Below, one piece after another: positions 1,514-23,414 of a stretch of DNA of 23,414 nt; positions within the stretch are counted from its first letter, which is position 1, and the number at the start of each line of letters is the position of its first letter. A program made the position numbers and the translations under genes. The stretch is from positions 1 to 23,414 of the IMG/VR virus record IMGVR_UViG_3300013004_000193; one strand, written 5' to 3'. Under the pieces are notes generated by a model that had not been told where the DNA came from, did not search any database, and saw only the letters and a list, made by a program, of their open reading frames with translations. Source of the DNA: a virus.

Positions 1514-4500
1514 TTACGATTGACCAGAATTAAAAGCTTGGGTAAGACTCTTAACCATCTTATTATGTGAAATTAATCCATTAGATATGTAGGTATGTGC
1601 ATCTTCAATCTCAAATTTAATTACGGTACCAATACCGATTGATTCGATTGATTCAATAACTTTATCACTTTCTAGACCTTTAATAACCATACCTTCAGTT
1701 AAGTTATAAGCTCTCATCCATTCTTCATTTGACATAAAGAATTGGTGAGTATCTGATACTTTAATAGAGGTTCCGTCAGTAAATGTAATATCAAATTTCT
1801 CTTGTTCGATAGGACTAGCTTCCATAACTCGGAACATACCGAATTCTTTTGTCTTCTCGTGCATTGTATAAATCATATCACCAACCTTAAGTTCTCCAGC
1901 AATTATCGATAGATCACGTGAGATAGAGATTGGGGTCATTGGGTCTGGACAACCTCCTCCACCACCAGACTTAATCGAATTAGCTAACGATTTAACTGCT
2001 GCCGGAGTTTTAGGGGTTGGAGCCGATATTACTTGACTAATACCAGTTCCTTTGATTTGTGTAACGGTTGGGTTAATGTTTTTAACCACATTAGTCAATG
2101 TATTAATTTGGGATTCGAATGTTGTTACCGGAAGAAGAGAACCAACAATAGAGTTAGAACGATATCTAGAAGTAAATTCAATATCAAATGAGAATCTTTG
2201 ATTTTCTTTTGGATTTGAGTATACATCGATTCCTATAGTTTTAGAATATTCAACATTAGCATTAGGTGAAGCGTTTAAAGATCCACCAATTTTACCCAAT
2301 CCAGAAGTTCCATAACCAAAATAGTCGGTCATACGATATTGATACGTGATAGGAATATTTAGAGCATTTGCTCCTCCAAATTGTACAGTCTTAACTGCAT
2401 CGAATCCACTACCATCAACCACAACATCTCCATGAGTATTTGGGTTAAGGAATAGATAAGCTCCACATGATCTAGGTCCTAATAAGAATTGGTCATTTTC
2501 AACAAATGCAACTTTAGAATATGTAGCACCAATTGCACCAGCTGAAGCTCCATTAAAATAAAGTGCGGTTTGTCTTCCGTATCCATAATTAGGAACTTGA
2601 ACTGGAGCAAAACGAGAGTTTCTTACCGATCCTTTAGTTATATTAAGTAGATTTGCGGTAGATCCAGCACAAGCGGTTTGCCAATCAATAATAGATGGAT
2701 GATCTCGATGAACTAGGATATCAGTATCATAGAATGTATTAATGATTGATGATGTTGACCCAACTACGAAAGATCCAGAAACTGTAGGTTTCCAAATAAA
2801 GTCAGATGTTGGTTGACCATTTGCCAGTGAAGTAATTGCACTTAATGCAGTTGTTCCAGCAAAGTACTCCATTTGATCCAGTGATGTTGCATATTGAGCA
2901 TTTGCATTAATGGTGGTTGATGGAATTCCACCACTACCGTATTGTAAGAATAAATCAGTTCTTACAACTCCATAAGTAGCACCACCAACGTTAGAGAATA
3001 ACTTGGTAATACCATCAATTGCTAAATATCTAGAATTAATATATTGACCTCTAACCTGAGCACTTTGTTCAGGTTGACGATTTATAATTCCATAACGATT
3101 AACATCTAATGTAGCAGGATTTGATAGAGCTAGAGGAACATAATCATAACGTCTTACTGTGTTGTAATCAGCATCGGTTGTTGAATATCCAGCACCGGTT
3201 GAGTATGATGCATTTGCAGGTTGGTATTTAGAACCCCAAATTCTTGCATACATTTCAAGAGGTGATGTATCAGCATTTTGTATTTGAACAAAATAATTCT
3301 TGGTGATAATAACACCTTTCTTAACGTTTAATCCGGCAACCTCATCTTTGTAATTACCGGCAAATATTTTAAGAGTTTTATTAGCCTCTACTGTATATTC
3401 GGTTCCTTGACTGTCAATAACTTTAACAACTAGTACACCTTTAGCAACTGTAATAAGAGCAGCAAGATTTTGTATTTGAGTTTGAAGGTCATTCAATTTA
3501 TCAAATAACGAAATGATATTATTTTCAGGAGTTAAGTAACCTGATGCAATATCAAATGAGTTATGCGCCCAATAGTTTTCACCTTGAGTAAATGATGTAG
3601 AAATGTGTTGTGGAACTCCATCTTGAATAAGAGCAAGTTCTAAATCTACTCTAACTTTATCTTGTTTAGCCTGTTCAACTATTTGATTTAAGCCTTGATC
3701 TACTTCTAGTTCTGAAGGAAAATCTACTTTAATTGTTTCACTGTATATAGATGTAGATGGTGATATTGGCCAACCTGCTTCAGAGATAGATTGAACTTTG
3801 AATTCAATGGCTTCTCCGGCTTGTATAGCAATATCAATTTGATTAATATTTACATAATCAGGGTTTTCAACATCTTCAACTACCCATTTTTGAGCACCGG
3901 TAGTAGGGTCTACTGCTCTCTTTCTTAACTCTGATTTATATTCAGTCCAAGTAGAGAAGGTACCTGTTCTTGGTTGACCGTTATTATCTGTGAATGGAAT
4001 TTGTTGTGGTGAATTAGCACTACCATTCTTTTGTAGATAACGATATTGAATATTAAATTGAACTACTTGTTGAGGACTAGTTCTATCCGATAATTTAGGT
4101 TGAGGCATCGGAAAGAAACCTCTAAGTCTGTACTTAGGATTGATATCTGAATTTGGGTCAGTTCCAATTTTAACAATCTCATTAACGGTGGTTGCATATA
4201 ATTGAGTTGCCGCATCTTTTTGCGTAATTAACGCATTAAGTTTATTTTCATCAACATCTCTTAAACGAGTTGTTGTATATTTAACCGTTTGTATCTTGGC
4301 TCTTAATTGATTAACTGATGCATCTAATGAAGCAATATCAGCCGATATACGTATCTTGTCTGCTTGTAGCTTTTTTAATTTTGCAGCCGGTGAAGTATCA
4401 GTTAAGTGATTATTGATTTGAACTACTTTGAAATCTGATGCAGTAAGTTTTGGTGCATCCGGGGTTAAACCAAAGATTGCTGGTGGAACTTTCTCTTTTG

Positions 4501-5674
4501 ACATTGAGTATAAAAAGGCACCAAAGTCAATTACTGAGTTTTTATAATAATCGGATAAGAAAACCGTATTTCCGGTAGTGTTATCGATGATGGTTAATTC
4601 ATTTGTATAAAACGATGAACCCGGAGACCAATTGATTGCTTCTAATTTAGAATCTGGATCGATAGCTTTAATAAATACTACACAGTTTTCGTTGAATCCA
4701 ACATTAAGGTTGATACTGATACTCGAAACATCTTCAGTATAAAACGAAAGAACATTAGCACCAATAGCAACTGGATCAAATCCTTCAATTAATTTAAGAG
4801 CAACTTTACGTTGACCTCCATCGATAGATGTTATTTCGTAACGAGTATTTCTTCTTCCATTATTTACCACTAAGAAGTCACCAATCTTAAGAGATTGAGT
4901 ATCTAGGTAAGGAGAATTAGAATCATTATAAAATAGGTTATCTAATTGAACAATAATTTGACGATTTTGTATAGTCACTCCGTCAACTACTGATGAAGTG
5001 GTAGAATCAGCAACATCTAAAACAGAAAAATCTCCATAGAAACGAACGGATCTCGGTGGAACATCAATTACATCTTTATCTAGGAAATAAGAAATATTGT
5101 AATCAATTAGGATTTTTACAAAATCATCATAATTGATATCTGATCTTCCTTTAAGTCTCTGTTCGAATACTTGAGTTTTTTCATAAGTATCAAGGTTTAA
5201 GATATATCGAGCAACATCAACATTTTCCGTGTTGAATTTAACTTGATTGGTTAGATCATATGTTACATACATTAAAGGATTAAGAAAAGATTCAAAGAAC
5301 CAATTTTCTTTAGTGGCAAATGTAGTCGGATTCGATACCGATTGAATAGTTGCCGCTTCCTTTTTAAGTTCACTAACTAAAATTTTTCTAAATGAACCAT
5401 CTGACAATTGAACATTCGATGCAGATTCACCAACACCAGAAAGTGCTTCCACATTTTTAGATAATGCAGAGATTTGTTCTTTCATTGAACCGAAAGAAGG
5501 AACCTTAACGGTTTTAAATGAACCACGATTTTCTGGATCGAGCACAAGTATTTCAACGGTATCTGATTTAGAAGAAACTACCTCAGATAGTTTACTCATA
5601 ATCTCGTAACCGTTATTTTGTAGTGCCAATAGGTCACTAAGGAGGGTTGTCAGTGTATATTTAGTTTCGCTCAT
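1514..5674 (-). CDS. Large tail fibre/outer baseplate protein with FN3-like region and C-terminal intein-like Hint domain
   Basis: This is a 1386-aa protein. The N-terminal ~130 residues are mostly helical. Residues about 430-505 form a predicted coiled coil (heptad-like Leu/Ile spacing, Lys/Asp rich). Residues about 535-655 resemble a fibronectin type III-like region, with IEFKVQSISEAGWPISPST near 623-641, as in phage host-specificity proteins. A long Ser/Thr/Gly/Asn/Tyr-rich beta region follows. A poly-Gly run (1237-1241) then leads directly into an intein-like Hint domain (1242-1371) and a 15-residue tail. The ATG is 1 bp from the stop of the upstream 681-aa gene, implying co-transcription and possible translational coupling. 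The leader has no Shine-Dalgarno. Family knowledge: large phage fibre or baseplate proteins combine such modules. Inference: this is a host-contact or outer-baseplate component that is processed at its C terminus. The exact T4 counterpart is not recognised. Confidence 0.8.
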   Translation of the reverse strand: MSETKYTLTTLLSDLLALQNNGYEIMSKLSEVVSSKSDTVEILVLDPENRGSFKTVKVPSFGSMKEQISALSKNVEALSGVGESASNVQLSDGSFRKILVSELKKEAATIQSVSNPTTFATKENWFFESFLNPLMYVTYDLTNQVKFNTENVDVARYILNLDTYEKTQVFEQRLKGRSDINYDDFVKILIDYNISYFLDKDVIDVPPRSVRFYGDFSVLDVADSTTSSVVDGVTIQNRQIIVQLDNLFYNDSNSPYLDTQSLKIGDFLVVNNGRRNTRYEITSIDGGQRKVALKLIEGFDPVAIGANVLSFYTEDVSSISINLNVGFNENCVVFIKAIDPDSKLEAINWSPGSSFYTNELTIIDNTTGNTVFLSDYYKNSVIDFGAFLYSMSKEKVPPAIFGLTPDAPKLTASDFKVVQINNHLTDTSPAAKLKKLQADKIRISADIASLDASVNQLRAKIQTVKYTTTRLRDVDENKLNALITQKDAATQLYATTVNEIVKIGTDPNSDINPKYRLRGFFPMPQPKLSDRTSPQQVVQFNIQYRYLQKNGSANSPQQIPFTDNNGQPRTGTFSTWTEYKSELRKRAVDPTTGAQKWVVEDVENPDYVNINQIDIAIQAGEAIEFKVQSISEAGWPISPSTSIYSETIKVDFPSELEVDQGLNQIVEQAKQDKVRVDLELALIQDGVPQHISTSFTQGENYWAHNSFDIASGYLTPENNIISLFDKLNDLQTQIQNLAALITVAKGVLVVKVIDSQGTEYTVEANKTLKIFAGNYKDEVAGLNVKKGVIITKNYFVQIQNADTSPLEMYARIWGSKYQPANASYSTGAGYSTTDADYNTVRRYDYVPLALSNPATLDVNRYGIINRQPEQSAQVRGQYINSRYLAIDGITKLFSNVGGATYGVVRTDLFLQYGSGGIPSTTINANAQYATSLDQMEYFAGTTALSAITSLANGQPTSDFIWKPTVSGSFVVGSTSSIINTFYDTDILVHRDHPSIIDWQTACAGSTANLLNITKGSVRNSRFAPVQVPNYGYGRQTALYFNGASAGAIGATYSKVAFVENDQFLLGPRSCGAYLFLNPNTHGDVVVDGSGFDAVKTVQFGGANALNIPITYQYRMTDYFGYGTSGLGKIGGSLNASPNANVEYSKTIGIDVYSNPKENQRFSFDIEFTSRYRSNSIVGSLLPVTTFESQINTLTNVVKNINPTVTQIKGTGISQVISAPTPKTPAAVKSLANSIKSGGGGGCPDPMTPISISRDLSIIAGELKVGDMIYTMHEKTKEFGMFRVMEASPIEQEKFDITFTDGTSIKVSDTHQFFMSNEEWMRAYNLTEGMVIKGLESDKVIESIESIGIGTVIKFEIEDAHTYISNGLISHNKMVKSLTQAFNSGQS
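1562..1951 (-). other. Intein-like (Hint/BIL-type) autoprocessing domain, residues 1242-1371 of the 1386-aa protein
   Basis: The domain starts with Cys1242 directly after five glycines (CPDPMTPIS fits the C-x4-T-x-I pattern of intein block A). It contains a block-B-like SDTH (S-x-x-H in place of T-x-x-H) and ends with a clear F/G block, EDAHTYISNGLISHN. The terminal His1370-Asn1371 pair is the one needed for Asn cyclisation. At 130 residues there is no room for a homing endonuclease. The residue after Asn is Lys, not Cys, Ser or Thr, so ordinary protein splicing lacks its +1 nucleophile. This is the hallmark of bacterial intein-like (BIL) domains, which cleave rather than splice. Inference: cleavage at Cys1242 and/or Asn1371 releases the Hint domain and the tail KMVKSLTQAFNSGQS. 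Confidence 0.85.
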
Positions 5675-17054: not shown

Positions 17055-18224
17055 TTATACAGTAAAGTCTACTTTCTTGGATTCTCTGTCGATCTTTACG
17101 ATTTTAACATCGATTTCTTGACCAACTTCAAATTGCATATCTTCATTAAGATGAGATTTGTGTAATAGGCCTACGATTTTAGGTTCTAGTTCAACAAAGA
17201 TTCCGTATTTCACGATTCTCTTTACTTTACCCGTTACCACCGATGGCACTTTGTATTTATCTTCGATACCTTCCCACTCATTAACAATAGTTTCTGGTTT
17301 GCATGAAAGTATGATTTTTGTATCATCTATAACATCTTTTAAGAAGAAGTCGATAGCATCACCCGGTTTGATTCTTCCTGAATTGTATTCTTCTAAGTTA
17401 GTTTCTGCTAAATCCGATTTTGCAATTAGACCAGTTAAGCAACCATTAAATTCAACGAATACTCCATGTCGGCTAGTTCCAGTAACGAAACCTGAGTATT
17501 TTTGACCGATAATAAGTTTTTCAACTTCTTGAGGAACAAGGGCTTTAAGATATTCACGGTGAGAAACCACGATATAATCTTTCTCTCTTGAGTAATTGAT
17601 TGGAACAACGTAAATTACCTGTCCAAGTAAAGATTCAAAATTAACTAGTTTGTTCATTCCACCAAGAGATCCTGGCATAAAGCAACGAACGCCATCAATA
17701 TTAATGAAGTAACCTCCATGAATAAGTTCTTCTACTTTACCTGAGTAAGCAATATTTTTACCGATAGATTCAAATACTTCGTTACGTTTAGAAGCTTGAA
17801 CATTTTTAGAATAAGAGGCAACGATAGGAGCATTAGATCCTTTAGTTTCGATAATAACCTCAATTTGATTTCCTACTTTAATATTAGGAATGTACTCTGG
17901 CGATTCTTTTTTAAGATCTAGAATGGCATCTTCTCGCCAACCTACATAAAGAATTGCATTGTGTTTTTCCTCATTAACCGTTAATACTGTTGCAAGGACA
18001 ACATCTCCGGTTTTAGGCTCTTTTATATTAGCAAGAGATCCCATGTATAAATCATAAATCTTTTGAGCGTCTGGCCCATTGTAAAAGACTTTTGATTTGT
18101 CACCTGGAGCATGTTTGATTTTTTTGTTGATTCTTCTTCTCCCAAAGGATTCTGACTCATAAGCTTCCCAATCTGCGTCGGTCCATACTTTTTTCGTCAT
18201 TAAAGATTCGATTTGTTCTGTCAT
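17055..18224 (-). CDS. Four-repeat S1 RNA-binding protein resembling ribosomal protein bS1
   Basis: This is a 389-aa protein. After a ~65-residue charged N-terminal segment come four S1 (OB-fold) repeats, at about 72-140, 158-222, 239-308 and 329-389. Repeat 2 has VRCFMPGSLGGMNKL, like the F-x-PGS-L signature of the second domain of ribosomal S1. Repeat 3 has YSGFVTGTSRHGVFVEFNGCLTG and repeat 4 has GKVKRIVKYGIFVELEPKIVGLLHKSHL, both classic S1 motifs. E. coli bS1 has six repeats, so this is shorter. S1 binds single-stranded A/U-rich mRNA and loads it on the 30S subunit. It is unusual inside a baseplate gene cluster. Inference: it biases host ribosomes toward phage mRNAs, or serves another RNA-binding role. 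The ATG follows AACAAACAAAAAA, without a Shine-Dalgarno. The assignment of S1 repeats is firm and the cellular role is not. Confidence 0.92.
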   Translation of the reverse strand: MTEQIESLMTKKVWTDADWEAYESESFGRRRINKKIKHAPGDKSKVFYNGPDAQKIYDLYMGSLANIKEPKTGDVVLATVLTVNEEKHNAILYVGWREDAILDLKKESPEYIPNIKVGNQIEVIIETKGSNAPIVASYSKNVQASKRNEVFESIGKNIAYSGKVEELIHGGYFINIDGVRCFMPGSLGGMNKLVNFESLLGQVIYVVPINYSREKDYIVVSHREYLKALVPQEVEKLIIGQKYSGFVTGTSRHGVFVEFNGCLTGLIAKSDLAETNLEEYNSGRIKPGDAIDFFLKDVIDDTKIILSCKPETIVNEWEGIEDKYKVPSVVTGKVKRIVKYGIFVELEPKIVGLLHKSHLNEDMQFEVGQEIDVKIVKIDRESKKVDFTV

Positions 18225-23135: not shown

Positions 23136-23402
23136 TTAGTCTAGTGTTGATGATATTTGTTGAAGGATTGCTCCTGCATTCTGTTGGTTAGGGAAACGTG
23201 CTTGTGCTCTAGCATCTTTTGCTAAAAATTCAACACCAGTATAGTAGAATTTCTGACCATCTTGACCATCTCCTCCTCCTTTAGCTTGTTTAACTGTGGT
23301 TTTTGGAGGAGTTGGTTTGGGACCTGGTTTGTTATTTGGATATTTTTCTCCAACTGGTGGGTTAGTTAAATAAGTTCTACCTCCTCTATGGAACATTGCC
23401 AT
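23136..23402 (-). CDS. Small Pro/Gly/Lys-rich protein, function unknown
   Basis: This is an 88-aa protein. It has a basic start (MAMFHRGGRTYLTNPP), then a Pro/Lys-rich stretch (about 24-40), a Gly/Asp/Gln-rich linker (42-50), and a short C-terminal helix region (FLAKDARAQARFPNQQNAGA). It is probably largely disordered. It ends 1 bp before the gp53-like start and is on the same strand, supporting a real gene. The ATG at 23402 follows an AT-rich leader cut by the window end. No family is recognised; a small virion or assembly protein is plausible from context only. Confidence 0.65.
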   Translation of the reverse strand: MAMFHRGGRTYLTNPPVGEKYPNNKPGPKPTPPKTTVKQAKGGGDGQDGQKFYYTGVEFLAKDARAQARFPNQQNAGAILQQISSTLD

Positions 23403-23414
23403 AATATCAATTAA

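Follow-up and report, generated by a model that had tools for sequence, protein, structure and literature searches.

A Hint domain at the end of a phage contractile-tail protein and a candidate lysine signature of its class

Inteins need a Cys, Ser, or Thr at the +1 position. Type-A BIL domains, in which Cys1 forms a thioester and the Asn cyclizes, mostly produce cleavage, with splicing being possible via a freed alpha-amine (PMC4031507), and BILs have been described in hypervariable, non-conserved bacterial proteins (PMC7765530). A different outcome has been reported by its authors for BIL2 of Tetrahymena thermophila, namely splicing through an isopeptide bond to a Lys side chain (PMC8616854). 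No Lys rule for type-A BILs was found in the BIL reviews consulted, and no description of the lysine signature presented here was found in the largely non-subscription literature searched, a result that is weak evidence of novelty.

The locus compared here with these systems lies in IMG/VR virus record IMGVR_UViG_3300013004_000193, positions 1 to 23,414; this whole stretch of 23,414 nt is referred to as the window. The precursor gene (Table 1) sits in a T4-like baseplate cluster, with gp6-like and gp25-like (wedge) neighbors, a gp5/spike-like (spike/hub OB) neighbor, and one weaker wedge-like match. Because of this position in the baseplate gene cluster, the precursor is a contractile-tail protein, and the label “fiber-like” given to it in the preliminary description found no support. 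Relatives of its N-extein are encoded by Tenacibaculum phages PTm1, PTm5, and pT24, Sphingomonas phage PAU, Lak, and other huge phages. A structure model of the C-terminal half of the N-extein (residues 719-1241) had a pLDDT of 30 and was excluded from the evidence. The baseplate cluster also contains an S1 RNA-binding-domain protein (window 17055-18224, (-); Pfam S1, E 5e-26).

Table 1. Positions in the window of the precursor gene, its Hint domain, and associated features
Feature	Position	Strand	Basis or remark
Precursor gene, 1386 aa	1514..5674	(-)	N-extein homologous to phrog_29329
N-extein, residues 1-1241	1952..5674	(-)	90% identity to Hint-free ortholog (L001/L002) stopping at the corresponding residue
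Gly5 linker, residues 1237-1241, directly N-terminal of the junction	1952..1966	(-)	Sequence read
Hint domain, residues 1242-1371, 130 aa, without endonuclease	1562..1951	(-)	Profiles, alignment, model
Cys1 of Hint (Cys1242), predicted N-S acyl shift nucleophile	1949..1951	(-)	Invariant, 26 relatives
Block B motif SDTH, His1310	1745..1756	(-)	His invariant, 26 relatives
Block G His1370-Asn1371, predicted Asn cyclization site	1562..1567	(-)	Sequence read
Lys1372, +1, conserved flanking lysine	1559..1561	(-)	+1/+2 counts across the class
Remainder of C-terminal tail, MVKSLTQAFNSGQS, non-conserved	1517..1558	(-)	Comparison with relatives
Gene B, C-terminal end, cut by window end	23136..23414	(-)	Hint-capable part outside the window

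The end of the precursor reads GGGGG, CPDPMTPI (C-x4-T-x-I), VSDTHQF, and EDAHTYISNGLISHN up to Asn1371, followed by KMVKSLTQAFNSGQS and the stop codon, the post-Hint tail of 15 aa being Lys1372 and then MVKSLTQAFNSGQS. The Gly5, Cys1242, C-x4-T-x-I, SDTH, and the Lys after the domain had all been read in the same way in the preliminary description, and the interval it assigned to the domain corresponds exactly to Cys1242-Asn1371. It had proposed an intein-like Hint domain without Cys, Ser, or Thr at +1, to be checked by a profile search and structure prediction, and both bore this out. Pfam Intein_splicing matched the 166-aa tail at E 3e-7 (below Pfam’s cut-off), and NCBIfam intein_Cterm scored 18.7 bits on it, exceeding its cut-off of 15.6. 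Mini-inteins in the PDB matched the tail by sequence (E 3e-6 and 1e-4), and the Hint family profile recovered solved BIL domains from the PDB at E 1e-13 and 2e-10. The AlphaFold2 model showed an intein fold with a mean pLDDT of 88 (core above 95), matching inteins, BILs, and Hedgehog at Z 18-20. Across an alignment with 26 relatives, neither Cys1 nor the block B His varied; the invariance of HN there is by construction, since the search pattern itself required HN and parts of TY..NG..S. Residues 1242-1371 are confirmed as an intact Hint domain, with its catalytic residues intact and Lys1372 at +1. Gly-rich linkers like the Gly5 occur in many relatives. The post-Hint tail (VKSLTQAFNSGQ, 1517-1558, (-)) resembles the pre-Hint stretch (VKSLANSIKSGG, 1967-2000, (-)), possibly a flank duplication at insertion.

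Comparison with relatives showed that the domain is not always present at this junction. The closest relatives (L001/L002) end in ..SLKNLIKSAKGG-stop where the window reads ..SLANSIKSGGGGG-Cys, that is, ..IKSAKGG and a stop versus ..IKSGGGGG and then Cys. No Hint of the same family was found in these two contigs (134 and 254 kb). The L010 protein, with an N-extein 50.5% identical to that of the window, carries at the corresponding end a Hint 67.7% identical, flanked by GGGGG before and Lys directly after HN; L005, nearer to L010 in the N-extein (66%), is without Hint. Because exact-junction Hint-free alleles occur in the closest relative and in a second tail gene, the domain behaves as a patchy insert, exactly inserted or exactly lost. 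Self-processing at Gly1241 is plausible: the Hint-free closest relative naturally stops at the position corresponding to the junction, and a protein released at Gly1241 would regain this terminus.

This other tail gene, gene B, belongs to the same tail module, and sister phages carry the same Hint family internally in it. Its alleles (L424, L425, L023, and L427-L431) comprise Hint-bearing and Hint-free forms, with two Hint types at one site. In L424 and L425 the protein reads ..ESEVQTLSGGSG, Hint C...SHN, and then KTKQGNEGAAIGG.., and in L023 a different Hint type occupies the same site (SGGGGG-C...HN-KTMQGNEG). Four Hint-free alleles are continuous, such as ..ESEIQSLQAQEG-YGNEGDAIGG.., so the junction reads ..LQAQEG-YGNEG.. 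without the Hint versus ..LSGGSG, Hint, KTKQGNEG.. with it. The junction Lys is found in 3/3 Hint-bearing alleles and in none of the Hint-free ones, and the roughly 360-aa C-part is conserved, running without interruption where the Hint is missing. An unrelated tail-tip gene gives a similar picture: Hint-free L447 reads ..PPGGQ-YNKMNQPEQPSQV-stop, and its relatives with Hint (82-91% nucleotide identity upstream) read ..PPGGQ-C...HN-IKMNQPEQPSQ[VAD]-stop (tail IKMNQPEQPSQV). As Hint-free L447 also has the Lys, the residue there may be native or left over. The preliminary description, correct on an intact Hint without a +1 nucleophile, had missed this insertion at more than one place. An in-frame insert missing from some alleles, as expected of a class 1 intein, was found at class level (gene B, L447); the pattern is weaker for the window’s own gene because its C-extein is only 15 aa.

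A LamG-like tail family (L018, L471-L535), fetched by a host-protein query, has an internal Hint in 60 of the 60 readable members, fixed rather than patchy, and all 60 have Lys at +1 (HN then KG). These distributions bear on the idea that the domain is a degenerate intein that has lost its activity and persists as a passenger, with the full-length chain being assembled. Its dispensability in close relatives would agree with this, but all 26 aligned members retain Cys1 and the block B His, the Hints of the window and L010 are 68% identical while the host proteins are only 50% identical, and every readable member of the LamG-like family retains the domain, which makes decay very improbable.

Lys-flanked or related Hint domains were also observed in other settings. 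Three proteins (L017, L029, L108) contain two tandem Hints, the first ending in HN-R and the second exactly in HN-K-stop. Hints at the protein C-terminus, with tails of the form HN-[ILV]K, occur in genome-collection contigs of Sphingomonas (L406, L413, L419, L420), Stakelama (L407), and Sphingomonadaceae (L409), probably in prophage or tail-tip genes. In L141, L157, L217, and L117, the Hint directly precedes the [KR]DP[LIV].Q[ST]F motif of a large structural protein, and its +1 residue is Arg or Lys. In a cultured-phage collection, Hint and Lys-flanked representatives matched mostly true inteins (terminase, RecA/UvsX, helicase, and portal genes), and no cultured virion proteome for the Lys-flanked class was found via these matches.

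The frequency of the flanking Lys was assessed with a sampling that was redone using three Lys-free patterns, one genome scan, and a separate host-protein query, because the first search pattern required Lys. Enrichment persisted in the Lys-free patterns and in the host-protein query, and an artefact of the first search was rejected. When clustered at 50% identity, the matches listed fell into 158 lineages, of which 124 are inteins, having Cys/Ser/Thr at +1, and 34 are not, one of these being a TK-stop family placed there for its two-residue tail. Among these matches, Lys was found at +1 or +2 in 27 of the 34 lineages compared with 7 of the 124 intein lineages (Fisher p ~1e-17, for single-linkage clusters that are only approximately independent and were sorted by a rule fixed after data inspection), and it was absent at +5 to +10. 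With the most specific Lys-free pattern, KG/KT/KV or [AGILNTV]K followed the domain in 34/38 non-canonical clusters among the matches listed. The search patterns favor one C-terminal motif, and the sequences are mostly metagenomic. The C-exteins are often 2-12 aa, sometimes just K, TK, NK, or GK, and otherwise non-conserved; no ORF ending at HN was found among the sampled matches listed, and several end HN-K or HN-xK. Exceptions among the 34 include Arg (RDPLCQTF), PAEK, MFKK, ASSK, AN, DA, and one poly-Gly; in a few lineages +1 is occupied by Arg, Asp, Gly, Pro, Met, or Ala and +2 is not Lys. As judged from these sequences, Lys at +1/+2 is a conserved positive signature of a large and widespread phage Hint class. 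The absence of Cys, Ser, and Thr from +1, as originally described, is correct, but the position is marked by more than that absence.

Since the Lys is kept while the rest of the C-flank varies, a role in the reaction appears to be its best explanation, most simply as the acceptor amine. Together with the insertion at several places, the conserved +1 Lys would make self-excision with a Lys acceptor no less likely than simple cleavage. Our preferred reading, held tentatively, is that this is a self-processing type-A BIL-like or mini-intein-like Hint in which the thioester is most likely resolved by the amine of the flanking Lys. BIL2, the best PDB sequence match of the family, offers a precedent with its reported Lys side-chain isopeptide. 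We infer the activity of the Hint, the role of the Lys, and the product as follows. Cys1242 would form a thioester with the Gly1241 carbonyl; Lys1372 (+1/+2 in relatives), in place of Cys/Ser/Thr, would provide the amine that resolves it, most likely through its side chain; and cyclization of Asn1371 would free the Hint domain. The mature protein would end in ..KSGGGGG, either free or joined to the short Lys-tail. That the phage class as a whole consists of “lysine inteins,” which use the side-chain amine of the +1/+2 Lys as acceptor and leave tail proteins with a Lys isopeptide scar, is a possibility held with less confidence. Lys at +1 and at +2 would need different geometries, BIL2 itself continues into MQVSI without a Lys, and the few lineages with Arg at +1 point to charge, not a nucleophile, as the relevant property. 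The ligation to a virion or host-surface partner suggested at first is unsupported, nothing having been found for or against it.

Cleavage at both ends is a close rival of the Lys-acceptor reading. As an ordinary type-A BIL, the domain would cut both junctions by thioester hydrolysis and Asn cyclization and free the N-extein at Gly1241, with the Lys merely a local charge or packing residue. Cleavage products predominate for type-A BILs, the closest relative naturally ends where the predicted N-fragment would, the C-tails are short and non-conserved, and Arg does occur at +1. However, cleavage alone leaves unexplained why Lys is retained at +1/+2 in C-exteins as short as K or xK and why sampled ORFs ending in HN are lacking among the matches listed, and in gene B, whose conserved C-part is uninterrupted in alleles lacking the Hint, simple cleavage would sever a conserved protein. 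We consider this explanation possible but on balance doubtful. The same presence/absence alleles keeping both exteins (gene B, L447) would also fit splicing through the alpha-amine, a mechanism proposed for type-A BILs in the literature, in which the Asn cyclizes first, the freed +1 alpha-amine attacks the thioester, and a normal peptide bond is formed. The Lys would then be accessory, but no role would be left for a Lys at +2, and this route seems unlikely.

If the Lys is the acceptor, as in the preferred reading, it would represent a further solution of protein splicing to the nucleophile problem, with very small domains (~105-130 aa) that need just one or two residues after them. Such domains could be useful for protein ligation, and an autocatalytic maturation step would be added to phage tail assembly. 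Even with cleavage alone, a large set of tail proteins would be identified that probably have C-termini in the virion other than the annotated ones, and the Lys signature is directly testable by BIL studies.

Among known systems, the window Hint shows the features of the Hint superfamily, namely the fold, Cys1242 at position 1, and the block B S-D-T-H1310. The Hedgehog C-terminal autoprocessing domain (PDB 1at0) shares the Hint fold (Z 17.9), the C-terminal position, and the Cys1 thioester; unlike it, the window Hint ends in His-Asn and has a 15-aa tail without a sterol-recognition region. Hedgehog-like lipidation was ruled out, as 15 aa after the Hint leave no room for a sterol-binding tail. 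Homing was rejected for a 130-aa Hint without an endonuclease domain. BIL2, from the BUBL1 locus (PDB 6y75, 6tmm), is the best PDB sequence match of the Hint family (E 1.3e-13) and an equal best fold match (Z 20.3). However, this domain is eukaryotic, has ubiquitin-like domains on either side, and continues into MQVSI, with no Lys at +1/+2, and no Pfam match to a ubiquitin-like domain, the flank expected of BUBL, was found in the window’s host protein. Class 1 mini-inteins (Ssp DnaB, gp41-1) share the fold (Z 20.3 for the Ssp DnaB intein), the catalytic residues, and the precise presence/absence in host genes, but have Cys/Ser/Thr at +1, where the window Hint has Lys1372. The type-A BIL CthBIL4 (PDB 2lwy) shares the Hint fold (Z 19.0), Cys1, the block B His, and the C-terminal His-Asn, and the window Hint, with SHN followed by Lys, has the His-Asn without +1 Cys/Ser/Thr that defines type-A BILs. 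Type-A BILs are located in hypervariable bacterial proteins, whereas the present class is found in conserved proteins of phage tail modules. Because the intein rule for +1 fails and the location is unlike that of described BILs, the window Hint falls into neither class, and on account of its conserved tail-module location it is filed as BIL-like rather than as a BIL proper. From type-A BILs, the present class differs in its occurrence in phage structural proteins, its mostly C-terminal position, and its conserved Lys at +1/+2.
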